Source: Blautia parvula (lineage in GTDB: Bacteria > Bacillota > Clostridia > Lachnospirales > Lachnospiraceae). Taken from it: DNA of 64,000 bases. The stretch is from the NCBI RefSeq assembly GCF_020215665.1, contig NZ_CP084061.1, positions 806,001 to 870,000 of the forward strand, given 5' to 3'. The translations under genes and the position numbers were made by a program. The notes under the pieces were generated by a model. That model was not told the DNA's origin and made no database searches. It saw nothing but the letters and a program-made list of their open reading frames with translations. Positions 2,119 through 18,098 of the stretch are shown piece after piece (the first letter of the stretch is position 1; every line of letters begins with the position of its first letter).

Positions 2119-3630
2119 TTATAATATTGGGTTTATTTCGTTTTCTGTTAAGGGATCACTCTCTGCGTGGGCTGTGATCAGTTCCCTCATCACATCACAT
2201 AAAATTTTTACGCCGCGGACGATCCTGTCCCTGGGAGGAAAGGTATAGTTTAACCGGATATAGCCTTCCCCTTTCTGTTTGGTCAGGTATGCAGGCATGC
2301 CGGGCAGAATGGCAACACCGTTTTTGGCAGCCTGTGAAGCCAGCTGGTCGGCTGACAGGCCATCCGGAAGTCTGCACCACAGATAGTATCCGCCGTTTGG
2401 TATATTCCAGGAAAGCCCGCGGGGAGCATATCGGTTCAGGGCCTCCACCATCATATCCCTTCTTTCCCTATATTCCTTTCGTATGAATTCCACATACTTT
2501 TCCATCTCCCCATTGACAATAAAACGCTCCACAATCTGTTGTGAAATACAGCAGGAATGTAAATCTATAAGCTGACGGATACCGGAAAAATGGTGGATCA
2601 ATTTCCTGTCTGCACAGATCCAGCCCAGACGAAGCCCGGGATAGATGGTTTTGGAAAAAGAACTGAGATAAATCACATTTCCGTTGGTGTCCATGGATTT
2701 TAAGGGGGCTGTGGTCTGGCCTTCAAAACTCAGTTCACTGTAGGGGTCATCCTCCAGAACGGGCACAGAATATTTGGCAGCCAGCTCCAGCAGCCGGACT
2801 CTCTTGGCAGTGCTCATGGTCACGCCGCAGGGGTTATGATAAGTGGGCATGGTGTAGATCAATTTCGGATGGTAGCGCATTAAGAGCTGTTCCAGTATCC
2901 TTACATCCATTCCGTCATGCTCCATGGGGACTGCCATAAGCCTGGCACCCATGGAACGGAAGCTCTGGATCGCCGGGAAGAAGGACGGTTCTTCAATCAG
3001 CACAATATCGCCGGGATTCAGAAAGGCACGTGCCGCAAGGTCGATACCTTCCTGGGCACCGGAAACGAGCATGATCTCGGAAGGATGGCAGAAACAGGAG
3101 CGCTTCTGCATGTATGAGGCCATGACCTTGCGCAGGGATGAAAAACCTGCCACAGGAGAGACCAGCATTCCCTTCGGGTTGGATAACAGCTCATGTTCAA
3201 TTCCTTTGAAAGCCCGGACAGGCGGATTTTCAAAAGAGGCAATACCGGCGGCAAAGGATATGACATCCTTTTGATTCGCCATTTCCAGATATTTGTTGAC
3301 ATCAAAGGTGTCGCGGTTTTTTAGATAGTCGCTGAACAAATACTCCCACATGGGTTCTCTGCGGGAATCCGTTTTGCGGATTTTTTGGTCAGTTCCTCTG
3401 ATGGCTGTGGTGCCCCTTCCCACATGGGAGGCCAGCAGACCATCCGCTTTTAATTCTTTATACGCGTTCAGTACAGTTGTCCGGTTCACGCCCAGTGTAT
3501 CCGCTAACTGACGTTCCGATGGGAACTGAAAGCCATCCGGGATCTCACCGGAAATGATCTGGGCCTGGATCTGTTCTGTGATCTGTCTGTATAAAGGTGT
3601 CTTTTTTGATTTGTCTATTTGAATTTGCAT
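2119..3630 (-). CDS. MocR-type regulator (GntR HTH fused to aminotransferase domain)
   Basis: 503 aa. Residues 1-75 are a GntR winged helix (KKTPLYRQITEQIQ, then FPSERQLADTLGVNRTTV). The rest is a class I aminotransferase-like domain with DDPYSEL and SSFSKTIYPGLRLGW, so the PLP lysine is retained. MocR proteins bind PLP or its amino-acid adducts and control PLP-linked genes. The start at 3630 follows GGAGGAACCC; an upstream in-frame ATG at 3690 would run through the operator and has no ribosome site. It forms an operon with the transaminase at 909-2096 and is probably autoregulated through the repeats at 3639-3727. Confidence 0.9.
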   Translation of the reverse strand: MQIQIDKSKKTPLYRQITEQIQAQIISGEIPDGFQFPSERQLADTLGVNRTTVLNAYKELKADGLLASHVGRGTTAIRGTDQKIRKTDSRREPMWEYLFSDYLKNRDTFDVNKYLEMANQKDVISFAAGIASFENPPVRAFKGIEHELLSNPKGMLVSPVAGFSSLRKVMASYMQKRSCFCHPSEIMLVSGAQEGIDLAARAFLNPGDIVLIEEPSFFPAIQSFRSMGARLMAVPMEHDGMDVRILEQLLMRYHPKLIYTMPTYHNPCGVTMSTAKRVRLLELAAKYSVPVLEDDPYSELSFEGQTTAPLKSMDTNGNVIYLSSFSKTIYPGLRLGWICADRKLIHHFSGIRQLIDLHSCCISQQIVERFIVNGEMEKYVEFIRKEYRERRDMMVEALNRYAPRGLSWNIPNGGYYLWCRLPDGLSADQLASQAAKNGVAILPGMPAYLTKQKGEGYIRLNYTFPPRDRIVRGVKILCDVMRELITAHAESDPLTENEINPIL

Positions 3631-3638
3631 GGGTTCCT

Positions 3639-3727
3639 CCAATTGGTTTGGTCCAATTTGTATTATATACAAGGATTGGTGGGGCATCAACCACCAATTG
3701 AACTTAATTTTTTACCACCAATTTGAA
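3639..3727. promoter_or_regulatory. MocR operator: repeated CCAAT / ACCACCAATT sites
   Basis: ACCACCAATTGAA at 3690-3702 and ACCACCAATTTGAA at 3714-3727 are direct repeats 24 bp apart. ATTGGTGG at 3675-3682 is the same core inverted, and CCAATTGG plus CCAATTTG sit at 3639-3659. Direct repeats at about two helical turns are the known geometry for MocR dimers. The array spans the promoter from upstream of -35 to the leader, which fits autoregulation. Confidence 0.65.
3662..3690 (-). promoter_or_regulatory. Promoter of the MocR operon
   Basis: On the reverse strand TTGATG (3690-3685) and TATAAT (3667-3662) are separated by 17 bp, close to sigma-A consensus. The start codon is 32 bp further on. 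The -35 box directly abuts one CCACCAATT repeat. Confidence 0.7.
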
Positions 3728-4028
3728 AGATGGGAGGGGGACTTTTGTTTTATATGCCGCCTTTACGCAAAAGCAGGACCATATTTTCGCTGAAGAAAGT
3801 AAATCCGGATCGGAGTATGACCAGCGTTCTTCAGGGGATTGTTTTATTGCAGACAGAAAATATGTATGCTATATTTTATATAATCCTAAGGATCGTAAAT
3901 GTAATATATACAGCATGATTTTTTATCCGAAATATGAGTGAAAGGGGTGTATTACCGTTCTCTATGCCGCTGCCGGAATGTAAAGTGTGCTGGCGTATGC
4001 GGGTGAACGGTAACAGTGGTATTTTATT
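3728..4028 (+). promoter_or_regulatory. Intergenic region with a long inverted repeat before the MBL gene
   Basis: No convincing gene lies here. TTACCGTTC (3952-3960) and GAACGGTAA (4005-4013) can form a 9-bp stem closing a 44-nt loop that ends only 15 bp before the ATG at 4029. The MBL gene has no clear Shine-Dalgarno sequence between the stem and the start. This could be a leader RNA structure or an operator; it does not match a riboswitch class I can name. Confidence 0.35.
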
Positions 4029-4919
4029 ATGTATGAACTGATACAGATCGGAGAGCGGAGTTATTATATCCAGAGTCCGGCAAAAATCGGGATCTATCTG
4101 GCAAATGATCAGGAGGTTTATCTGATCGACAGCGGCAATGACAAGGATGCAGGGAGAAAAATCCGTAAAATTCTGGAGCAGAATGGCTGGTCATTGAAAG
4201 CTATCCTAAACACACATTCCAATGCAGACCATATCGGCGGCAACCGTTATCTTCAGCAGCAGTACGGCTGTGACATATTTGCAAATGGGATGGAGGCTGC
4301 TTTCACAAAATACCCGCAGCTGGAGCCGGCGCTTCTGTATGGCGGATATCCCTTTCAGGATTTAAGGCATAAATTTTTGATGGCAGCTCCCAGTGAGGCG
4401 AAAGAGCTGACAGACAGCGGCTTTCCAAAGGAGATAGAAGTGATTCCTCTGCCGGGGCATTTCCTTGATATGGTAGGGTTCAGAACCCCGGACCAGACAG
4501 TGTTTCTCGCTGACTGCCTAAGCAGTGCAGCTGCTCTGGAGAAATATCAGCTCACTTTTATTTATGATGTGGAAGCGTACTTAAATACACTGGAACGAGT
4601 AGCGGCTATGCAGGCGGAGATGTTTGTTCCGTCTCATGCAGAGCCTGTAAAAGATATCCGTCCGCTGGCAGAATGCAACAGGAAGAAGGTTCTGGAGATT
4701 GCAGATCATATCACAGAGATCTGCCGGGAGCCAATCACATTTGAAGCATTGCTGCAAAGGCTCTTTTCCGATTATCAGATTACCATGACCTATGAGCAGT
4801 ATGTGCTGGTTGGAAGTACAGTCCGTTCTTATTTATCTTATTTGAAAGACAGCGGAAAAATAGAGGGATACATTGAGAATAACAGTCTGTTGTGGAGAAA
4901 AATTCGGGAGGAAGGATAA
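4029..4919 (+). CDS. MBL-fold metallo-hydrolase, variant metal motif
   Basis: 296 aa, metallo-beta-lactamase fold. The motif after the second strand reads THSNADHIGG (H63-S-N65-A-D67-H68) where the family normally has HxHxDH, so the middle metal ligand is Asn. The other landmarks are intact: PLPGHFLDM (His), FLADCLS (Asp) and VPSHAEPV (His). A roughly 75-residue helical C-terminal region follows the domain. The Asn substitution suggests altered or single-metal binding; similar HSNADH sequences occur in other Firmicute MBL proteins, so it may define a subfamily. The GNAT gene starts 2 bp after the stop, so the two are probably co-transcribed. Substrate unknown. Confidence 0.8.
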   Translation: MYELIQIGERSYYIQSPAKIGIYLANDQEVYLIDSGNDKDAGRKIRKILEQNGWSLKAILNTHSNADHIGGNRYLQQQYGCDIFANGMEAAFTKYPQLEPALLYGGYPFQDLRHKFLMAAPSEAKELTDSGFPKEIEVIPLPGHFLDMVGFRTPDQTVFLADCLSSAAALEKYQLTFIYDVEAYLNTLERVAAMQAEMFVPSHAEPVKDIRPLAECNRKKVLEIADHITEICREPITFEALLQRLFSDYQITMTYEQYVLVGSTVRSYLSYLKDSGKIEGYIENNSLLWRKIREEG

Positions 4920-4921
4920 CC

Positions 4922-5407
4922 ATGTCGGAAAAACATCTGAAGTTCAGATACGCGGAAAGAAAAGACACAGCTCTTATACTGAAGTTTATAAAAGAGCTTG
5001 CCGCTTATGAAAAGATGGAACATGAGGTGATCGCCACAGAAGCGGTTTTGGAGGAGTGGATATTTGACAAAAAGAAAGCGGAAGTGATTTTTGCAGTGGT
5101 AGATAATGAAGAGATAGGTTTTGCACTGTTCTTTCATAATTTTTCCACCTTTTTGGGACGTGCGGGGCTTTATCTGGAAGATTTATATGTAAGGCCAAAA
5201 TACCGGGGAAATGGCTATGGAAAGGGAATATTGAAAAAACTGGCTCAAATTGCAGTGGAGAGGGGATGCGGGCGCCTGGAATGGTGGTGCCTGGACTGGA
5301 ATAAACCAAGCATCGACTTCTATTTATCATTGGGAGCGGAGCCAATGGAAGACTGGACCGTTTACCGTATTGCCGGTGATACACTGAAGCAGTTATCCGT
5401 AAAATAG
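4922..5407 (+). CDS. GNAT-family N-acetyltransferase
   Basis: 161 aa. Shows the GNAT pattern: an N-terminal RYAERKDTALILKFIKELA segment, then LYLEDLYVRPKYRGNGYGKGIL, in which the pyrophosphate-binding loop R/Q-x-x-G-x-G/A is seen as YRGNGYGKG, and the C-terminal DWNKPSIDFYLSLGAEPM. This resembles diamine/thialysine acetyltransferases, but the acceptor is not certain. The start at 4922 has GGGAGGAAGG in front; a longer frame from 4892 lies inside the previous gene. It ends an MBL-GNAT unit before the terminator at 5437. Confidence 0.85.
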   Translation: MSEKHLKFRYAERKDTALILKFIKELAAYEKMEHEVIATEAVLEEWIFDKKKAEVIFAVVDNEEIGFALFFHNFSTFLGRAGLYLEDLYVRPKYRGNGYGKGILKKLAQIAVERGCGRLEWWCLDWNKPSIDFYLSLGAEPMEDWTVYRIAGDTLKQLSVK

Positions 5408-5436
5408 AAAAACAGTTACTTTTATCTCGGCCCAGA

Positions 5437-5468
5437 GGGCTGCCGTACTACCACGGCAGTCCTTTTTT
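5437..5468 (+). terminator. Intrinsic terminator after the GNAT gene
   Basis: A 10-bp stem (GGGCTGCCGT with ACGGCAGTCC, one G-T pair) with loop ACTACC is followed by TTTTTT. It isolates the MBL/GNAT pair from the aconitase X operon. Confidence 0.9.
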
Positions 5469-5489
5469 GTTTTCACAAATCATAAGTGC

Positions 5490-5520
5490 GTCGGAAAAAT
5501 GTCGAAAAACGTCGGAAAAG
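5490..5520 (+). repeat. Three phased GTCGRAAAA repeats upstream of the -35 box
   Basis: GTCGGAAAAA (5490), GTCGAAAAAC (5501) and GTCGGAAAAG (5511) are spaced 11 and 10 bp, one helical turn each, ending three bases before TTGACA. They may be an activator site or phased A-tracts that bend DNA and stimulate the promoter. Confidence 0.5.
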
Positions 5521-5523
5521 TGA

Positions 5524-5552
5524 TTGACAATATTGAATACAAGAAATATAAT
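5524..5552 (+). promoter_or_regulatory. Consensus sigma-A promoter of the aconitase X operon
   Basis: TTGACA (5524-5529), a 17-bp spacer and TATAAT (5547-5552) are a perfect match to the housekeeping consensus. A strong promoter of this kind needs a repressor, which fits the palindrome just downstream and the GntR gene at the end of the operon. Confidence 0.9.
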
Positions 5553-8893: not shown

Positions 8894-10165
8894 ATGGAAA
8901 TAGCAGTATTGTTCGGCAGTTTCTTTATCCTGCTTCTTTTAAGTGTTCCGGTGGGACATGCCATCGGAATCTCGGGTTTACTGAGTTTTCTTTTATGTAC
9001 AGATTACTCACCTATGGTATTTATTAAAAGTTCCCTGTCAGGTACAGATTCCTTTACGCTTCTGGCTGTTCCGTTTTTTATGCTTGCCGGAAATCTTATG
9101 GCAACAGGCGGAATTGCCAAAAGAATCGTGAACTTTGCCGACAGCCTTCTCGGCTGGATGACAGGAGGTCTCTCTATTGTGACCACGATTGCCTGCATGT
9201 TTTTCGGCGCTGTTTCCGGTTCTGCCGTTGCGACAACCTCTGCCATCGGCTCTTTCATGATACCGGAGATGGAGAAAAAAGGATATGACAAAGACTTTTC
9301 AGCAGCATTAGCGGCAGCGGCGGGTTCTGTAGGCGTTATCATTCCGCCCTCTGTGCCTCTTGTCATTTACGGTGTGGCTGTCAATGCATCTGTCAAAGAC
9401 CTGTTTACAGCAGGTATCTTGCCGGGCATCATGATGGGCATTGCCATGATCATCGTCTGTGTCATCACCTCCAAAAAACATGGATGGAAAGGTGACGCAA
9501 AACGCCCGGAACTGAAGAAGGTGTGGAAGGCATTCAGGGAAGGGTTCTGGGCACTGCTGATGCCGGTTATTATCCTGGGTGGAATCTACAAGGGTATCTT
9601 TACTCCCACAGAGGCATCTGTGGTATCGGTTGTCTACTGTATCTTTGTCAGTATGTTTGTGTATAAAGAAATGGACCTGAAGGGCCTGTATAAAGGATTT
9701 CTGGGAATCGTGAATCTTTGCGGCATTACCCTGTTTATGATGGGGTTTGCCAATGCTTTTTCCTATTTCCTTACCATTGAGCAGATCCCTAACAGACTGA
9801 CGGAACTGTTCCTGGGAATCAGTCATAATAAATTCGTGATCCTGCTTATGATCAATATTCTGCTTTTGATCGTGGGATGTGTGATTGACAATATTCCGGC
9901 TACAATCATTCTGGCCCCTATTCTTCTGCCGGTCGTAGAAGCGATTGGGATGAGCCCTATTACATTTGGTGTAATGCTCACCATGAACCTGGCGATCGGA
10001 TTCATTACCCCGCCGTACGGCATCAATCTTTTTATGGCAACTGCCGTTTCGGGGGTTCCCATGGATGCCATGATGAAGAGGATAGGCGGTCTGCTGGTAT
10101 CGCTTCTGGTGGTATTGATGCTGATCACCTATGTGCCATGGTTTACAATGGGATTCCTGGGATAG
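8894..10165 (+). CDS. dctM: TRAP transporter large permease
   Basis: 423 aa, a very hydrophobic 12-helix DctM protein. Family signatures are LLAVPFFMLAGNLMATGGIA near residue 52, AAAGSVGVIIPPSVPLVIYG near 137 and IGFITPPYGINLFMATAVSG near 370. Together with DctQ it forms the membrane complex that takes substrate from DctP. Only 2-3 bp separate it from dctQ, and the LarA-type gene follows 29 bp later. Confidence 0.95.
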   Translation: MEIAVLFGSFFILLLLSVPVGHAIGISGLLSFLLCTDYSPMVFIKSSLSGTDSFTLLAVPFFMLAGNLMATGGIAKRIVNFADSLLGWMTGGLSIVTTIACMFFGAVSGSAVATTSAIGSFMIPEMEKKGYDKDFSAALAAAAGSVGVIIPPSVPLVIYGVAVNASVKDLFTAGILPGIMMGIAMIIVCVITSKKHGWKGDAKRPELKKVWKAFREGFWALLMPVIILGGIYKGIFTPTEASVVSVVYCIFVSMFVYKEMDLKGLYKGFLGIVNLCGITLFMMGFANAFSYFLTIEQIPNRLTELFLGISHNKFVILLMINILLLIVGCVIDNIPATIILAPILLPVVEAIGMSPITFGVMLTMNLAIGFITPPYGINLFMATAVSGVPMDAMMKRIGGLLVSLLVVLMLITYVPWFTMGFLG

Positions 10166-10194
10166 GAGAAGCCTAAAGGAAAGCGAGGTTGGAA

Positions 10195-11433
10195 ATGCCG
10201 CTATTATTGCCTGAAGATTATGATATAAAAATCCCCCCTCTTTACAAAGTACGCCAGGTGTTCGGCAGAGATACTCTGCCGGACATCAAGGCGGCAGTGC
10301 AAAAGGAGTTTCAAAGGGAAGAGATACGTGATAAAATAAAACCGGGAATGCGTGCAGCAGTTGCTGTAGGCAGCCGTGGTATCCGCAATTTGCCGCTGAT
10401 CATAAAAACGATTCTGGAGGAACTGAAAATACTTGGCGCAAAGCCCTATATTGTCTCCGCCATGGGCAGCCATGGAGGGGGAACCGAGGAGGGACAGAGA
10501 GAAGTTCTGTATGGCTATGGGATTACGGAGGAAGCCATGCAGGTACCGATCATCACTACTACAGAGGTGGTATGTCTGGGAGAGATTTCAGGCGGAAGAA
10601 AGGTATATTTTGACAAATCCGCTTTGGAAGCGGACGTGATCATTCCGGTCAACAGAGTGAAGCTGCATACGGATTTTGTGTCCGACATACAGAGCGGCCT
10701 CTGTAAAATGCTTGTCATCGGTCTGGGTAACCACAGGGGATGTACGGAGATTCATGAGGCTGATTTTTCCATATTTGGGGAAGTGATAAAAGAGGCAGCA
10801 TCCTTGATATTGGAGAAGGCACCGGTTGTTTTTGGGGTTGCCGTTTTGGAAAATGCCTATGATGAGACTTGTCGGATCGAAGCTGTCCCGGCGGAGATTC
10901 TGATCAGACGGGAAAAAGAGCTGGTGAGGGAAGCAAGAAAAAACATGCCGGTTCTGATGATTCCGAAGATTGATATCCTCATAGTTGAGGCTATCGGAAA
11001 AGACATATCAGGAGCCGGATTTGACCCCAATATCCTTGGGAAAAGTTATATTCTTAAAGAATTTGTCCTGCCGGTTCCAAGGATAGACAAGATGATACTT
11101 CTGGATATATCCCCGGCCTCCCATGGTAACGGAATCGGTCTCGGGATATTTGATATCATCACACGGAAAGTCTTTGAGCAGCTTGATTATGAAGCTATGT
11201 ATGCAAATGCGATTGCGGTAAAATGTGTGGATGACTGTAAAATCCCACTCATAGCCGAGGATGAGGAAGAAGCGGTGAAAATCGCAGTAAAAATCCTGAG
11301 AAATGCGGATAAAGAGAATCTCAGAATCGTAAAGATAAAAAATACCATCGAGCTGGAAGAAATTATGGTATCCCATGCGCTTCTGGGGGAAGTGGAAAAA
11401 AATCCCTGCCTGGTTCTGGAAAATAAGTCGTGA
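10195..11433 (+). CDS. LarA-type nickel-pincer racemase/epimerase homologue (DUF2088)
   Basis: 412 aa. LarA enzymes racemise or epimerise 2-hydroxyacids using the nickel-pincer nucleotide cofactor. Landmarks present are MGSHGGGTEEG (His of the first motif) and NRVKLHTDFVSDIQSGLCKM followed by GLGNH, giving the His and Lys expected to hold the cofactor and act in hydride transfer. No LarB, LarC or LarE cofactor genes are in the window. The ATG at 10195 is preferred over a TTG at 10189 because GCGAGG abuts the TTG. In this operon it may convert the imported isomer into the one used by AcnX, an inference from context. Confidence 0.8.
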   Translation: MPLLLPEDYDIKIPPLYKVRQVFGRDTLPDIKAAVQKEFQREEIRDKIKPGMRAAVAVGSRGIRNLPLIIKTILEELKILGAKPYIVSAMGSHGGGTEEGQREVLYGYGITEEAMQVPIITTTEVVCLGEISGGRKVYFDKSALEADVIIPVNRVKLHTDFVSDIQSGLCKMLVIGLGNHRGCTEIHEADFSIFGEVIKEAASLILEKAPVVFGVAVLENAYDETCRIEAVPAEILIRREKELVREARKNMPVLMIPKIDILIVEAIGKDISGAGFDPNILGKSYILKEFVLPVPRIDKMILLDISPASHGNGIGLGIFDIITRKVFEQLDYEAMYANAIAVKCVDDCKIPLIAEDEEEAVKIAVKILRNADKENLRIVKIKNTIELEEIMVSHALLGEVEKNPCLVLENKS

Positions 11434-11448
11434 GATGAGGAGGCCGAG

Positions 11449-12438
11449 ATGAAGGTCAAAGAAAATTTGTGGGAAACGATCCGATATGGAAAGCCGGATG
11501 CCCTGATCAATGAATGGGAGGCATTCTCTTTTATATCGGATCCTGTTACAGCATATATGTCTGTAGCTGAGAGGGGAAAAACGAAAGTAAATCCATGGGG
11601 AGTGACCGTATACTGGGGGGAAGACGAACCGGGCTCCATGCCTCTGATCAATGATAAGACAAAGGTATGTAAAGATATCTGCAGATGGAGGGAATATGTG
11701 AAGGTACCGGATATCAGAAAGGTTCCCATGGACTGGAGTAGAGCGGTGGAAGATACCCGGAGGATACGCGGGGAAGGCAGGCTTTCTATAGCTATGATGG
11801 CCTCCGGTTTGTTTGAACAGACCCATGCGTTAATGGGATTTGAAGACGTTTTTATTGCCATGCTGGAGGAACCGGAGGCCATGCATGAACTTCTGGACTG
11901 CATTTTGGATTTTAAATTGAACTGGTGCCGGATGTTGGTAGAAAACTGCAGGCCTGATGCCGTTCTCTTTCATGATGATTGGGGTTCTAAGAAAAGTCTT
12001 TTTGTAAGCCGGGATACATGGGCTGCATTTTTTAAAGAGAGATACAGAAAAATATATGGTTATCTCAGAGAAAACGGGGTACTTGTCATCCACCACGCGG
12101 ACTGTTACTGTGAGACGATCGCAGAAGATATGGCAGAGATCGGTGTGGATGTATGGCAGGGTGTTACTCCTGAGAATAATATTCCGAAAATGCAGAAACG
12201 CCTCAGAGGGAAAATGGCTTTCATGGGCGGACTGGATGCATCCGTGATCGATGTGCCGGATCACAAGGAGGATATCATAAGGGGGGAGGTAAGAAGGGCC
12301 TGTGAGGAATACGTGCCTGGAGGAGGATTCATTCCCTGTCTGACATACGGAGGTGATGACGGCAGTATTTATCCGGAAGTGGATGAGATTGTCAAAGATG
12401 AGATTGCAAAGTGGAGCCGGGCATATTTCCACAGTTAA
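11449..12438 (+). CDS. Uroporphyrinogen-decarboxylase-fold protein (MtaA/methyltransferase-like)
   Basis: 329 aa, URO-D superfamily. True HemE is unlikely: there are no haem genes nearby, and HHADCYCE near residue 219 with a later GGFIPCLTYGG Cys resembles the zinc-thiolate His/Cys set of the corrinoid methyltransferase branch (MtaA and relatives). These proteins often have unknown roles in anaerobic catabolic operons. The GAGGAGG site lies between it and the LarA-type gene only 15 bp upstream, so it belongs to the same transcript. Possible roles are methyl-group or C-C bond chemistry on the same substrate; no partner corrinoid protein is encoded in this operon. Confidence 0.72.
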   Translation: MKVKENLWETIRYGKPDALINEWEAFSFISDPVTAYMSVAERGKTKVNPWGVTVYWGEDEPGSMPLINDKTKVCKDICRWREYVKVPDIRKVPMDWSRAVEDTRRIRGEGRLSIAMMASGLFEQTHALMGFEDVFIAMLEEPEAMHELLDCILDFKLNWCRMLVENCRPDAVLFHDDWGSKKSLFVSRDTWAAFFKERYRKIYGYLRENGVLVIHHADCYCETIAEDMAEIGVDVWQGVTPENNIPKMQKRLRGKMAFMGGLDASVIDVPDHKEDIIRGEVRRACEEYVPGGGFIPCLTYGGDDGSIYPEVDEIVKDEIAKWSRAYFHS

Positions 12439-13282: not shown

Positions 13283-14272
13283 TTACAGGGAACCGGTATC
13301 AAAAACCGGTTCAATATATTCTTTGATCAATCCAATCCTGTCTTTTGCCTTTGGTGTAAAAAGAGCGGCGATGGAAACCACCAAGTTTTTCTCTTTGTTC
13401 ACATAGATCGTATTTCCCCCGTCTCCCATGGCAGCAAAAGTATTCGCATTCTCATCGCATAGCCACCATAAATATCCATAGGGAAGATCCTGTTTTTTCC
13501 ATCGGCTGTGTTCTTTTGTACTCTCGTCTATCCAGCTTTTGGATACGATTTCCCGGCCCTCCCACATGCCGCCGTTTAAATATAATTGTCCTATTTTTGC
13601 CATATCAGCCGGTGACAGGGTAAGCCCCCAGCCCGCTGCGTTGTTGCCGGCCTCATCCGAGACCCAGCCGCTTATATCCGTGGCGCTGTTGAACGCCATC
13701 TGTTCCTCTTTGCTGTGAAAAATAATATTTTTTTCAACAGTGATTCCCAGAGGAGAGAATAAATGTTCAGATGCAAAGGCAAAGACAGAGCAGCCCGAGG
13801 TCTTTGCGAGGATACCGGATAAAAGGTCCGGCCCGATGAGCGGTGCATAACGGAATTTACCAATCTGTCCTTTGCCGCCCAATTGCTCAAGGCTGAATTT
13901 CACCCAGTCATCGCTGGTAAAATATTTTAGGTAGGGGGCAAATTTGTATTTGTAGGGTGCAGTCATTGTGAGCAGGTTTTCAAGGGTAATGTTCCGGATG
14001 GAGTCCATAGTATTCTTCACAGTGTATTCCGGGAAAAAATCCAATACCTTCTGATGGATGTTTTTGATATATCCCCGGTCCAGCGCGATTCCGATCAATA
14101 TGGACAGAATGCTTTTGGTGACTGAGTAAACATGAATGCGGCAGTTGGATGTGCAGCCGTTAAAGTAGTTTTCATATTCTGTTCTGCCGTTTTTTAAAAC
14201 AACGATGCCTGCAGTATTGCTGTAATCCCTGCAGATGGTTTTTTCAAGTTCTGTAATCTTTTCCTGATTCAT
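13283..14272 (-). CDS. Serine hydrolase, class C beta-lactamase/esterase fold
   Basis: 329 aa, cytoplasmic (no signal peptide). The SxxK catalytic pair is S50-V-T-K53 in VYSVTKSILS. The usual YxN motif reads RYAPLIG, so the third position is Pro instead of Asn/Ser, and the KTG/HTG-like element is replaced by GDGGNTI. It is therefore a relative of EstB/AmpC-type hydrolases instead of a proven beta-lactamase. Its ATG overlaps the stop of the MerR gene (ATGA), so it is translationally coupled to that regulator and is the only gene after it. Confidence 0.82.
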   Translation of the reverse strand: MNQEKITELEKTICRDYSNTAGIVVLKNGRTEYENYFNGCTSNCRIHVYSVTKSILSILIGIALDRGYIKNIHQKVLDFFPEYTVKNTMDSIRNITLENLLTMTAPYKYKFAPYLKYFTSDDWVKFSLEQLGGKGQIGKFRYAPLIGPDLLSGILAKTSGCSVFAFASEHLFSPLGITVEKNIIFHSKEEQMAFNSATDISGWVSDEAGNNAAGWGLTLSPADMAKIGQLYLNGGMWEGREIVSKSWIDESTKEHSRWKKQDLPYGYLWWLCDENANTFAAMGDGGNTIYVNKEKNLVVSIAALFTPKAKDRIGLIKEYIEPVFDTGSL

Positions 14273-15123
14273 TTTTTCTCCTTACTGTTTGGGTGAAATG
14301 ATGCCTTTTTCTTAACGGGATAATAAATTTCCGTGGTCAGTTCGCTTTCCGATGAGACCTGGGAGGGGTCGGTGATGTACACTTCGCAGAGCGGGCCGTT
14401 TCCCTCGTATCCTTCCATCTCTGCCCATCTCCGCTGCTTTGCATAGACAGAGGGCAGCGCGGAGTAGGGACCGTGCAGGACAGTTTTTAGGCAGAGACCG
14501 GGAGTGTGGTTCCTTGTCCCTGTGACATATTCTTTAACCGGAATGGCAAATTCGGTATCCAGGCCAAAGGGACTGAATTCCTCACTGTGGAACAGTACCA
14601 TTGGAGGCGCGGTGACTGTCAGTTTATTCTCCCGGATCACTTTGAATAATCTTCCGTAGCATTTTGCATATTCCTGTGGATACTCGCCTTCCCGTACCAT
14701 CTTCCGGACAGACAGAAGATACATTTGGGGAACCTCCGTGAGCTGGATCTCAATGGTATCCAGATAGGACATAATGGATTTTCCCTGCTTTAGGTTTTCT
14801 ATATCCTGATTCATCTGTTCCAGGGTTTTTTCATATTCCAGGAGCTGTTTTTTCATGTCCTGCTCCTTTTTTATAAGCGCGAGGCAGAGAGCTTCCTCCG
14901 GCAGTTCTTCGGAATGAAGAATGGATTTGATCTCATCCAGAGAAAAGCGGTAGGATTTCAGACGGTTGATGAAGAGCATGGTTTCCAGCTGGCTGATAGA
15001 ATAATACCGATATCCGTTTTCCGGATCGATCTCTTCCGGATGGATCAATCCGATTTCCGCGTAGTAGCGGAGTGTCTTGGCAGACACCTTGCAGATGGAT
15101 GAAAATTCACCTATTGATAACAA
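14269..15123 (-). CDS. MerR-family regulator with GyrI-like effector domain
   Basis: 284 aa. Residues 1-70 form the MerR winged helix (LSIGEFSSICKVSAKTLRYYAEIGLI), residues 75-120 a dimerising coiled coil, and the C-terminal half is a GyrI/BmrR-type effector-binding domain ending in TTEIYYPVKKK. BmrR-like proteins sense lipophilic cations and similar drugs. The TTG at 15123 is chosen because AAGGAGG lies seven bases upstream; earlier in-frame codons fall inside the promoter. It controls itself and the coupled serine hydrolase through the 19-bp-spacer promoter at 15161-15191. Confidence 0.88.
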   Translation of the reverse strand: MLSIGEFSSICKVSAKTLRYYAEIGLIHPEEIDPENGYRYYSISQLETMLFINRLKSYRFSLDEIKSILHSEELPEEALCLALIKKEQDMKKQLLEYEKTLEQMNQDIENLKQGKSIMSYLDTIEIQLTEVPQMYLLSVRKMVREGEYPQEYAKCYGRLFKVIRENKLTVTAPPMVLFHSEEFSPFGLDTEFAIPVKEYVTGTRNHTPGLCLKTVLHGPYSALPSVYAKQRRWAEMEGYEGNGPLCEVYITDPSQVSSESELTTEIYYPVKKKASFHPNSKEKK

Positions 15124-15160
15124 AGCATATCCTCCTTGCGGCGTGTTTCTGATCACCCTT

Positions 15161-15191
15161 ATGTTACACCTTGCCCTAAGGGCAAAGTCAA
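15161..15191 (-). promoter_or_regulatory. MerR-type promoter with 19-bp spacer and central palindrome
   Basis: On the reverse strand TTGACT (15191-15186) and TAACAT (15166-15161) are separated by exactly 19 bp, the over-long spacing that MerR proteins correct by untwisting. The spacer carries the palindrome TTGCCCTTAGGGCAA. This strongly supports autoregulation of the MerR/serine hydrolase pair. Confidence 0.85.
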
Positions 15192-15232
15192 CAGGGAATA
15201 TAAAAGAAAAGATGTAAATTTCTGCCAATATT

Positions 15233-15279: not shown

Positions 15280-16347
15280 ATGGGATTATTAAAGTTTGAA
15301 TCAGAACCGGAGTTTGGGAAACTGGCGGAATATGTATCTGCCTGTCAGCCCTGCGGCGCATTAGAGGCAGAAGGATACTGTGCGCCGGAGAAAAGGCTTT
15401 TTCGGGAATATACCGGGTTTACTGTGGATTTTCTGTATGCATCTGTTCAGTTGGATGACAAAAAGATATTTGAGGACTACGTTTTGTGGTTTTATGAGCT
15501 TCTCTGTCCTGTTATGGCAGATATGCCGAAACATAGAGTGCGTGCCCTTCTTCTGAGCCACTTTTCAGTGGTCGAAAACGGCGCGGAGCAGATTTTTGCC
15601 GGGGCAGGGCTGAAAAAACTGAAAAGGTTTATCGGGTACGGGAAGAGGGCTGCAGCAGACGCCGTAGTGACAGAGAAATCTCCGGAGCCGTTAAGGTACG
15701 GGAAATACGAAAAAGAGCGGCAGCGGTACTTAGATGCGCTTATGCGGTCAGATACAAAAAGTGCAGTCGCTGTGGCAGCGGAGTTTTTACAGACCGGAAT
15801 TCCTGTTGAGGATATTCTGGTGGAAATCTTGGGGGAAACCATGAGAGGGGTGGGAGAGCTATGGCACAGCCATCAGATTTCCGTGGACATGGAACATTAT
15901 TGTACATCCACCACCCAGCTTGCGTCAGCGCAGCTGTATCCTGTTATTTTTCGGCAGAGGCGGAAGAAGAAAAAGGTACTGGCAGCATGCGTGGGAAGTG
16001 AGCTGCATGAAATGGGAGCCCGCATGACAGCGGATCTTTTTGAATACAATGGATGGGACAGTATCTATCTGGGGGCGGGGGCAGATATTTCTTATGTCCT
16101 GAAACAGATACAAGACCACAGGCCTGATCTGGCGGCGTTTTCAGTGACTATGCCTCAGTATTTGGTTCAGTGCCAGGAGATGGTTGACAGGCTGAAAGCA
16201 TGTTATCCTGACCTGAAGATCGCAGTGGGAGGCAATGCGTTTCAGAGTTTGAGTAAAATACAGGGGAACTGGAGGATAGATGTATATGCCCGGGATGCAA
16301 GGGAACTTGTGCGGTGGGCGGATGATACATTTGCAGATGAGATATGA
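15280..16347 (+). CDS. CarH-like cobalamin-binding sensor (no DNA-binding domain)
   Basis: 355 aa. Residues about 140-220 are the helical-bundle B12 cap domain and 231-350 the Rossmann-like B12-binding domain. ELHEMG (E241-x-H243-x-x-G246) is the cobalt-ligand motif ExHxxG. In the cap, W195-H196 and E205-H206 form Wx9EH, the hallmark of CarH-type adenosylcobalamin photoreceptors, including the His next to Trp that ligates cobalt after photolysis in CarH. CarH has an N-terminal MerR domain; here about 140 unrecognised residues, rich in Cys and aromatics, replace it. The stop overlaps the start of the GGDEF/EAL gene, implying a sensor that passes its signal to c-di-GMP turnover. A corrinoid-carrier role is the alternative, but no methyltransferase is adjacent. 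Confidence 0.82.
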   Translation: MGLLKFESEPEFGKLAEYVSACQPCGALEAEGYCAPEKRLFREYTGFTVDFLYASVQLDDKKIFEDYVLWFYELLCPVMADMPKHRVRALLLSHFSVVENGAEQIFAGAGLKKLKRFIGYGKRAAADAVVTEKSPEPLRYGKYEKERQRYLDALMRSDTKSAVAVAAEFLQTGIPVEDILVEILGETMRGVGELWHSHQISVDMEHYCTSTTQLASAQLYPVIFRQRRKKKKVLAACVGSELHEMGARMTADLFEYNGWDSIYLGAGADISYVLKQIQDHRPDLAAFSVTMPQYLVQCQEMVDRLKACYPDLKIAVGGNAFQSLSKIQGNWRIDVYARDARELVRWADDTFADEI

Positions 16348-18098
16348 TTGGTTATCTTGCATTATGTGATTTGCACTGGAAGATTACGAAAGTAATCCGC
16401 AGCATTCCTGTAAGCCTGGCAGAGCCGGGACAGGATGCAAGGGAGATTTTTGCGGACAGGGAGGTTCTGGACAGGCTTTTGGAGCAGGATACAGAACAGA
16501 TGGTTTCTGCCCGCAGGCAGCTTCGTGGAAAAGAGCACCTATCTGTATTTGTCACAGTAAAGCCTGTCAGGGAACAGGTACTGCTGTCTGTATACGATAT
16601 GGAAAATGCAGACTGGCTGCCCCGGATGGCAGAGCTGCAGCTTTCTGCCCTGGATGAATTGGCTTCTCTTGGAACAGGACCTTACGGGGAGTCATATTTT
16701 GAAATCCAAAAGGTAAACAACCGGCTCATCAATTCCCAGAGAGCGCTTGCAAAAGCAAATGTACTGCTGAAAGAGACGCTAGAGGAGATGCGCAGGGCGG
16801 AAAACACCATTGAGATCCTTAAAAGAGATCCGGTTACCAATCTTCTCACGGAGAAGATATTTTATGAACGGGCACAGGTAATGCTTGAGGAGAATCTGGG
16901 ACAGGCGTTTGATATAATCGCAGTGGATATAGAGCGGTTTAAAATTATCAATGATGCATTCGGAACGGCTGCGGGAAACCAGCTTCTCAGCGATCTTTCC
17001 GTCTGCTTACTGGATATCAGAGTGGACGAAAAGTCTCTGTTTGCAAGGATAAGGGCAGACCTTTTTGCGGTGCTGGTTCCCCGTGAAGAAGGGGTGTATG
17101 GAAGGCTGGAACACAGTCTTAACTGTTTTTTGAAAAATTATCCGCTGCCTATGCGCCTCACTGTAAAAATCGGCGTTTACCAGATTGAAGAGCGGGATAT
17201 TCCTGTGGAAAGAATGTGTGACAGGGCATTTATCGCAGCAGGCAGCATTAAGGGAATGTATGCGGAAAAGATAGTCTTCTACAATAATGCCATGCGGGAA
17301 AAAATGCTTTTTGAACAGAAGATTTTAGATACCATGGTTGAGGCGCTTGAACAGGGACAATTTCAGATCCATCTGCAGCCAAAGGTCAGAGTAAACACAG
17401 AGGAAGTTGTTGGCGCTGAGGCTCTGGTGCGATGGGAACATCCGGAGCTGGGGCTGCTGTCACCGGCCGACTTTTTGCCTGTTTTTGAAAGGAATGGATT
17501 TATCTATTCCCTGGATCTGTATGTCTGGCATAAGGTCTGCTCTGCCATGCAGCGGTGGAGGCAGATGGGAGGAGCGGATATTCCTGTGGCCGTAAATGTT
17601 TCACGCATGGACATCTATCATGGAGACCTTCCGTCCCTCTTTACTGAACTGGTAAAGGATTACGGCCTGGAGCCGAAAAACCTTCATCTTGAGATAACGG
17701 AATCCGCATACATATCAGATTCCAGGCAGCTTCTTTTGGTAGTGGAACAGCTCAGAAAAACAGGATTTGTGGTTGAGATGGATGATTTCGGAAGCGGATA
17801 CTCGTCCTTGAATATGCTGTCAGAGCTGCCGGTTGACGTGCTGAAGCTGGATCTTAAATTTCTGCGCACAGGGACAGATGCCGGTCGAAGACACCGGATC
17901 ATGCAGGCGGTCATTGACTTGGCCCATACGCTCCATCTTCTGGTCATAGCGGAAGGTGTGGAGACAAAAGAAGAATCTCTGCTCTTGGAAGAGATGGGCT
18001 GTCAGTATGCACAGGGATATTATTATGGGAGGCCTGTGCCGGAAAATGAATTTGAGAAACGTTTTCTTCATTTGGAGTGCCAAAAGAAAGAGTATTAA
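16344..18098 (+). CDS. c-di-GMP phosphodiesterase: degenerate GGDEF plus intact EAL
   Basis: 584 aa, no membrane segment. Residues 1-115 are an unassigned, possibly PAS-like input; 120-156 are coiled coil; 157-315 a GGDEF fold whose signature reads R237-A-D-L-F241 in place of GGDEF, so cyclase activity is not expected. The EAL domain (about 325-575) is complete: E359-A-L, NVS near 418, LEITES with E453, DDFGSGYSSLN from D480, KLD near 501 and EGVE at 537-540. It should hydrolyse c-di-GMP in the cytoplasm. The ATGA overlap couples it to the cobalamin-binding sensor upstream, which most likely controls it by contact. Confidence 0.9.
   Translation: MIGYLALCDLHWKITKVIRSIPVSLAEPGQDAREIFADREVLDRLLEQDTEQMVSARRQLRGKEHLSVFVTVKPVREQVLLSVYDMENADWLPRMAELQLSALDELASLGTGPYGESYFEIQKVNNRLINSQRALAKANVLLKETLEEMRRAENTIEILKRDPVTNLLTEKIFYERAQVMLEENLGQAFDIIAVDIERFKIINDAFGTAAGNQLLSDLSVCLLDIRVDEKSLFARIRADLFAVLVPREEGVYGRLEHSLNCFLKNYPLPMRLTVKIGVYQIEERDIPVERMCDRAFIAAGSIKGMYAEKIVFYNNAMREKMLFEQKILDTMVEALEQGQFQIHLQPKVRVNTEEVVGAEALVRWEHPELGLLSPADFLPVFERNGFIYSLDLYVWHKVCSAMQRWRQMGGADIPVAVNVSRMDIYHGDLPSLFTELVKDYGLEPKNLHLEITESAYISDSRQLLLVVEQLRKTGFVVEMDDFGSGYSSLNMLSELPVDVLKLDLKFLRTGTDAGRRHRIMQAVIDLAHTLHLLVIAEGVETKEESLLLEEMGCQYAQGYYYGRPVPENEFEKRFLHLECQKKEY

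Follow-up and report, generated by a model that had tools for sequence, protein, structure and literature searches.

A stretch of 64,000 nucleotides of Blautia parvula DNA (the window), which lies in a single-contig genome of 6.25 Mb, contains two overlapping open reading frames, ORF1 and ORF2, that probably constitute a photocobilin split between two genes, in which the adenosylcobalamin (AdoCbl) state of the sensor ORF1 would be passed in trans to a helix of ORF2 and so to its EAL phosphodiesterase domain. The features of the locus are as follows.

15280-16347, forward strand: ORF1, the sensor, bilin-type globin plus B12-binding domain (355 residues, reading frame open).
15280-15669, forward strand: globin/bilin-type domain, residues 1-130, six helices in the model (phmmer, family profile, structure model).
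15718-15936, forward strand: B12-binding_2 four-helix cap, residues 147-219 (Pfam, 3e-13).
15862-15897, forward strand: W195-H196 and E205-H206, adenosyl pocket, H196 at the position of TtCarH His132 (alignment; residue roles from PMC11796333 and PMC10442372).
15973-16245, forward strand: B12-binding Rossmann domain, residues 232-322 (Pfam, 1.3e-17).
16000-16017, forward strand: E241-x-H243-x-x-G246, with H243 the expected lower axial histidine (alignment).
16344-16347, forward strand: ATGA, overlap of the ORF1 stop and the ORF2 start (sequence).
16344-18098, forward strand: ORF2, the output protein, with PAS-like domain, transmitter helix, degenerate GGDEF and EAL (584 residues, open).
16344-16613, forward strand: PAS-like N-terminal region, residues 1-90 (order of strands and helices in the model alone, no Pfam match).
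16686-16823, forward strand: long helix, residues 115-160, proposed docking/transmitter element, core EIQKVNNRLINSQRALAKAN at 16701-16760 (model, helix scan).
17052-17066, forward strand: degenerate GGDEF motif RADLF, residues 237-241 (sequence).
17340-18035, forward strand: EAL phosphodiesterase domain, residues 333-564, catalytic motifs present (Pfam, 5.8e-68).

The ATGA overlap suggests translational coupling of the two genes. A consensus scan at the locus gave 6 promoter-like sites (shuffle mean 4.9) and 7 terminator-like sites (3.4). A sequence-only reading of the window had placed the genes, the overlap of the ORF1 stop with the ORF2 ATG, the hallmarks W195/H196, E205/H206, E241, H243 and G246, the degenerate RADLF motif and the complete EAL site exactly where they are found; its account of domains was incomplete, the bilin-type globin domain (1-130) of ORF1 and the PAS-like fold (about 1-90) and long helix (115-160) ahead of the GGDEF domain of ORF2 having been overlooked.

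Photocobilins are the best phmmer matches of ORF1 in the PDB (8j2w, 3e-23; 8j2y, 1.3e-16), with CarH (5c8d) far behind at 8e-6. The label "CarH-type" in the sequence-only reading therefore fits the motifs but not the protein as a whole, which is nearer to photocobilins and has a bilin-type domain; the proposed switch stands as an AdoCbl-photoreceptor-like domain paired with an EAL enzyme, with the type of sensor revised. ORF1 has no MerR domain, as had been claimed (Pfam gives no MerR match), and an identity as plain CarH is rejected on this, on the closer photocobilins and on the NCBIfam CarH score (46.7; cut-off, 400). For the N-terminal domain, a profile (A6) made from 30 relatives matches the bilin domain of SasPcob (1.9e-7) and allophycocyanin beta (2.1e-6), and 7 of the 30 globin-domain relatives match Pfam Phycobilisome (best, 8.6e-6); the ORF1 globin domain alone gave no Pfam match up to an E-value of 1. 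In phmmer the C-terminal bilin domain of AbPcob matches ORF1 residues 40-88 with an i-Evalue of 0.0037, and the equivalent for SasPcob is 2. The ORF1 model (mean predicted local distance difference test, pLDDT, 86.5; 7 sequences) places six helices in residues 10-127 ahead of the four-helix cap and the Rossmann fold, and its B12 part superposes on 8j2w at 2.0 Å over 204 columns. When the whole of ORF1 is given to Foldseek, methionine synthase ranks top at a root-mean-square deviation of 19.5 Å, good alignment being confined to the B12 part. The globin-then-B12 order is the reverse of that in SasPcob; photocobilins are grouped by a B12 domain at either end (PMC10979010). By its sequence, then, ORF1 is a photocobilin in reversed domain order whose output lies on a separate protein.

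Relatives were drawn from 145 kin genomes, a contig search (7 loci) and profile searches of family, class and phylum genomes, in which the sensor profile (E<=1e-30) was positive in 7 of 397, 10 of 391 and 22 of 398 genomes, respectively, the window's own genome being counted each time. Loci with at least 110 bits against the sensor profile, an unbroken sensor with both domains and a position away from contig ends were kept, giving 32 with the window included; L054, where the profile matched the B12 part alone, was retained on the strength of its globin part in the alignment. Left out were loci below 110 bits (among them L010 and long methionine-synthase-like frames), sensors shortened or at contig ends (L038, and L137 and L138 on contigs C82 and C96 of G126), L053 at a contig edge, G868 (L085/L129), where stops interrupt both sensor and partner, G931 (L139), with a group II intron gene inside the sensor gene, G1105 (L128), with a two-gene split sensor and no effector, and B12 proteins lacking a globin domain. 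Six plasmid loci were tallied separately. The nearest named sensors to ORF1 are those of [Clostridium] asparagiforme and [Clostridium] citroniae.

In all 32 loci a gene on the same strand lies directly 3' of the sensor, at spacings of -94 to +52 nucleotides, the most negative of which rest on first-possible start codons. Pfam assigns every one of these genes to a signalling enzyme: 6 EAL proteins, 12 cyclases and 14 kinases. The adjacency of B12 sensors and EAL genes, proposed earlier as worth a search, is thus conserved as a pairing with signalling outputs, EAL in 6 of 32 and others in 26. The six GGDEF-EAL partners are those of the window, [C.] citroniae (L033), L034, L079, L080 and [C.] asparagiforme (L032); in L032 the gene is frameshifted before the EAL part, which forms a separate frame, and one motif pattern each is missing from L079 (EALVRW) and L080 (AEGVE). 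All 12 cyclases carry (S/A/G)G(D/E)EF. On a sensor tree made by a quick method, with two rows on long branches, the EAL-linked sensors fall on one side of a branch with a Shimodaira-Hasegawa-like approximate likelihood ratio test (SH-aLRT) support of 99, and no fewer than 6 changes between the three output types are required, against a minimum of 2, though well-supported branches alone force fewer. Among plasmids (tblastn, 12 records, 6 examined), the sensor and globin profiles match all six sensors; five are paired, four in Azospirillum and one in Ilyobacter polytropus, each preceding a gene for a kinase or cyclase with the helix.

These neighbours bear directly on whether ORF1 might instead be the corrinoid carrier of a methyltransferase system. 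The same Pfam B12 domains occur in such carriers and a URO-D/MtaA-like gene (11449-12438) lies 2.8 kb upstream, but none of the 32 next genes encodes a methyltransferase, the neighbour that the sequence-only reading had named as telling against itself, and the carrier-family scores are far under their cut-offs; on these two grounds the carrier, a very improbable candidate, was rejected. A globin domain and Wx9EH are not known as features of corrinoid carriers.

Two of the excluded loci have unusual gene structures. In G1105 (L128, 5754-6833) the globin (122 residues) and the B12 protein (229 residues) are separate neighbouring genes, and the globin contains a C-R-E-D stretch resembling the motif of phycobiliproteins. 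In L139 a group II intron reverse-transcriptase/maturase gene (3522-4949) splits the sensor gene (2595-3203, 5061-5543), and the neighbouring gene for a helix-bearing kinase is open.

W195 (Trp61 of SasPcob), E205/H206 (Glu71/His72) and H243 (His108) are the same in all 32 sensors, so the Wx9EH/ExH match is not due to chance; E241 is kept in 31, as is W70 at the position of SasPcob Trp296. Numbering in the SasPcob paper is that of the chain plus 6 (His108 is chain residue 102), from which Asp270 and Trp296 were deduced to be chain residues 264 and 290. The photocobilin pattern, W-x9/10-EH with E/DxH, is present as W195-x9-E205H206 and E241xH243. At the H196 position histidine occurs in 10 of the 32 sensors, including all 6 that are EAL-linked. 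The position of the bilin-holding Asp270 is more variable (Asp in 24, Asn in 5, Gly in 2 and Tyr in 1, the window's Y44). A published light signature consists of GxxW, EH, GxxH and GxxxP (PMC11796333); the GxxH glycine is present in 7 of the 32 sensors, ORF1 not being one of them. Going by these residues, the window copy is a sensor with an intact adenosyl pocket and two altered chromophore-side positions.

Another reading makes the globin domain the true sensor, responding to a bilin made by the cell or to a host bile pigment, and gives the B12 part a structural role. In its favour, the domain is kin to phycobiliproteins, and ABM-family genes lie directly upstream of the sensor in two relatives (L128, 6830-7135; L089, 5384-5707), their best match being the heme-degrading HmuQ family at 45 and 43 bits against a cut-off of 130; these genes are a possible source of bilin. 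The B12 residues are nevertheless better kept than the bilin Asp, which the window copy lacks, and a search of its genome for PF01126 heme oxygenase, which did not extend to ABM-type enzymes, found none. Bilin sensing of this kind is accordingly quite improbable.

The partners share a helix. When nine partners of the three output types are aligned, five columns are invariant, and three of these (Q122, N125 and R133 in ORF2) lie in one helix. The helix, IQxLNNxLxNxxRxLxKxN, is found in 32 of 33 partners (those of the 32 loci plus L038), each scoring above its own 20 shuffles, in a scan built on eight seeds that are themselves among the 33. A profile of 23 helices (A3) finds one strong match beside the sensor in each of 22 sensor genomes, and only two weak ones elsewhere (E 0.005 and 0.0099). 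Among 398 phylum genomes it matches in 17 (E<=1e-4), in 16 of them within 600 nucleotides of a sensor; these 16 are all among the 22 sensor-positive genomes, and 7 lie outside the seed, three of which share a genus with a seed. The remaining six sensor-search genomes, which have no such helix match, comprise G849 and G1175, with helix-turn-helix-B12 proteins, G1010, G1202 and G1105, with small or split B12 proteins, and G1122 (L075), with a full pair whose helix is weaker yet scores above its shuffles. The window's own genome has 14 EAL matches and the helix in ORF2 alone. Plasmid partners, which are outside the seed, match A3 at E-values of 3e-13 to 2e-17 in 5 of 6 loci, with few frames searched per locus. 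By computation the helix is thus almost private to partners of B12-globin sensors.

The helix begins within residues 1-76 in 11 of the 14 kinases, and Pfam finds no domain ahead of it there. It is thus the sole input visible in these kinases, whose signal must arrive from elsewhere, most obviously from the adjacent sensor. The shared helix probably receives the sensor's signal. It is unlikely, in comparison, that the helix is a mere dimerisation coiled coil, with ORF1 acting elsewhere (e.g., on the PAS-like region) or sharing only its expression with ORF2. Helices ahead of GGDEF or HisKA domains are common signal relays, and more than 100 residues that might offer another contact precede the helix in 21 of the 33 effectors. 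Against a generic coiled coil are the near-privacy of the sequence, the location of three of the five invariant columns in it across three output types, and the 11 effectors, all kinases, in which fewer than 77 residues precede it.

ORF2 is expected, from its motifs, to be an enzyme that destroys cyclic di-GMP (c-di-GMP). Its GGDEF domain (Pfam, residues 161-295, 5.1e-12) has RADLF in place of the GG(D/E)EF of diguanylate cyclases, and its EAL motif set is complete (EALVRW, NVS, LEITES, DDFGSG, LKLD, AEGVE, QG). Pfam finds no B12 domain in ORF2. In the model (mean pLDDT 79.7, below 50 for residues 104-119) the helix of about 115-160 leads from the PAS-like fold into the GGDEF-EAL unit.

If ORF1 and ORF2 work as a split photocobilin, ORF1 would bind AdoCbl between the four-helix cap and the Rossmann domain with H243 as lower ligand, and W195 and E205/H206 would hold the adenosyl group, which would lock the AdoCbl form, a dimer in the photocobilins studied. 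The long helix just before GGDEF-EAL would be the surface that receives ORF1. Breakage of the Co-C bond by green light, or lack of AdoCbl, would change the shape or oligomeric state of ORF1; this would move the helix and alter EAL activity and hence c-di-GMP. In relatives the same input would be wired through the same helix to diguanylate cyclases or histidine kinases. In AbDPcob, illumination increases cyclase activity more than 10-fold relative to the dark state with AdoCbl, and photocobilins that stand alone can control a cyclase in trans in vitro (PMC10979010). The direction of EAL control is not readable from homology, because the partners of this sensor in relatives include enzymes with opposing activities. 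CarH depends on oxygen to complete its light state and on His132 to disassemble (PMC10442372); oxygen would complete the light change here if H196 acts like that histidine, and with H196 kept, light plus oxygen is a plausible joint cue.

A related and possible, though less probable, explanation keeps the pair and replaces light as its cue by cobalamin supply or oxygen/redox, such that apo- and AdoCbl-ORF1 would set two EAL levels and loss or oxidation of the cofactor would report B12 shortage or air in an anaerobe. AdoCbl binding alone lowers AbDPcob activity relative to the apo form (PMC10979010), and the upper histidine that CarH needs for dissociation is present as H196, a residue shared with all the EAL-linked sensors. 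Scoring of 150 out of 404 candidates in the window's own genome gave 6 cobalamin-riboswitch matches, and a search of it for adenosyltransferases that did not cover the CobA/BtuR family gave 1 match; loss of the bilin Asp and the signature Pro would fit a relaxed role in light sensing. The invariance of the adenosyl-pocket W and EH speaks against this alternative, as does the occurrence of paired sensors in soil and marine-mud bacteria (Azospirillum, Ilyobacter), where light may matter.

Several observations weigh against the split photocobilin. A presumed gut anaerobe sees little light. Y44 of the window replaces the bilin-holding Asp kept in 24 of 32 sensors, and D269 replaces the GxxxP proline kept in 29, so that the light signature is incomplete in ORF1, with GxxW and EH present and S240 in place of the GxxH glycine. 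ORF1 sits on a long end branch (0.86) of the sensor tree. PF01126 heme oxygenase was not found in the genome in a search that left out the ABM family, PF03992. Sensors of a Skermanella plasmid and of G1105, where the sensor is split, have no adjoining effector. The next gene of L034 is the one exception among 33 without the helix; it looks like the third gene at L033, as would follow from the loss of an intervening gene. In L137 (G126, sensor cut by the contig end) the overlapping next gene, of 316 residues, has neither helix nor Pfam domain, and the 17th helix genome, G1155, has a helix cyclase with an OrfB_IS605 transposase gene upstream and no sensor in the 10 kb examined. The helix profile was made from the partners, whose own scores are therefore partly circular. 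In vitro, control of a cyclase in trans by SasPcob changes sign with and without biliverdin (PMC10979010), and function is for this reason not readable from sequence. AbDPcob, an accepted photocobilin, has His at the position of the bilin Asp (PMC10979010). With these points counted, we still regard the split photocobilin as the probable reading of ORF1 and ORF2.

The unit of photoglobin and B12 domain and its ties to signalling domains were reportedly described by Schneider et al. in 2022. Photocobilin photochemistry was published in 2024, for SasPcob (8J2W/8J2X) and the cyclase fusion AbDPcob (8J2Y), which share with ORF1 a B12 photoreceptor domain plus bilin-type globin, and with the pair a link to c-di-GMP; in-trans control is known for photocobilins in vitro (PMC10979010). 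ORF1 keeps the Trp61, Glu71/His72, His108 and Trp296 positions of SasPcob, but its globin comes first and its bilin Asp is lost, and at the position of H196, which is CarH-like, SasPcob has Gln and AbDPcob Tyr (PMC11796333). Unlike the AbDPcob fusion, the output here is a separate EAL protein from an overlapping gene, with the partner-shared helix. CarH (TtCarH, 5C8D) has the same Wx9EH, ExH and upper histidine position; ORF1 lacks its MerR DNA-binding domain and has its output enzyme on another protein. MorA (4RNH) and PA0575 (5M3C), the best Foldseek and sequence matches of ORF2, also have GGDEF followed by EAL, but the GGDEF of ORF2 is degenerate and ORF2 carries the helix of B12-globin sensor partners. 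In BBAG-2 biliproteins a bilin globin is likewise associated with a B12-binding protein, and with heme oxygenase genes (PMC10151467), whereas in ORF1 globin and B12 domain are fused and the genome yielded no PF01126 match.

The earlier view that no pairing of this kind had been described holds in part: a link between B12 photoreceptors and c-di-GMP and in-trans cyclase control are published (PMC10979010), and a description of the two-gene EAL pairing or the helix was not recognised in a literature search that excluded the text of the 2022 photoglobin study and supplements. A 2022 census of c-di-GMP stimuli does not mention cobalamin or B12 in its main text. No novelty is claimed for the sensor-EAL pairing itself; what appears from sequence to be new relative to known photocobilins is a split, reversed and output-swapping arrangement with an almost private connector helix. 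In its general form, which we consider about as probable as its converse, one AdoCbl-dependent sensor would be a plug-in that controls a cyclase, phosphodiesterase or kinase in trans by docking on the private connector helix, in at least Bacillota, Pseudomonadota and Fusobacteriota, and would make c-di-GMP breakdown in gut anaerobes depend on B12 state, light or oxygen. If so, a short transferable helix lets a B12-based receptor act on separate enzymes, a phosphodiesterase joins the enzymes under cobalamin control, the cue (light, oxygen or B12 supply) becomes directly testable, and a compact connector is available to wire green light to kinases, cyclases or phosphodiesterases.

Other B12 proteins were met in the searches. 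In all eight scanned (L005, L007, L008, L045, L055, L069, L072 and L076) a Cro/XRE-type helix-turn-helix is fused ahead of B12-binding_2/B12-binding, a composition that may make them an XRE counterpart of CarH; in L046, L056 and L077 genes of small B12-binding proteins (218-239 residues) overlap a MacB/FtsX-type permease gene. In the window, the palindrome TTGCCCTAAGGGCAA (15171-15185), seen by eye upstream of a divergent MerR/GyrI-like gene (14269-15228), resembles a MerR-type operator. Further upstream (8894-12438), genes for a DctM transporter, a nickel-pincer isomerase group 22 protein (502 bits; cut-off, 400) and a URO-D/MtaA-like protein lie in a row, followed by a GntR regulator.

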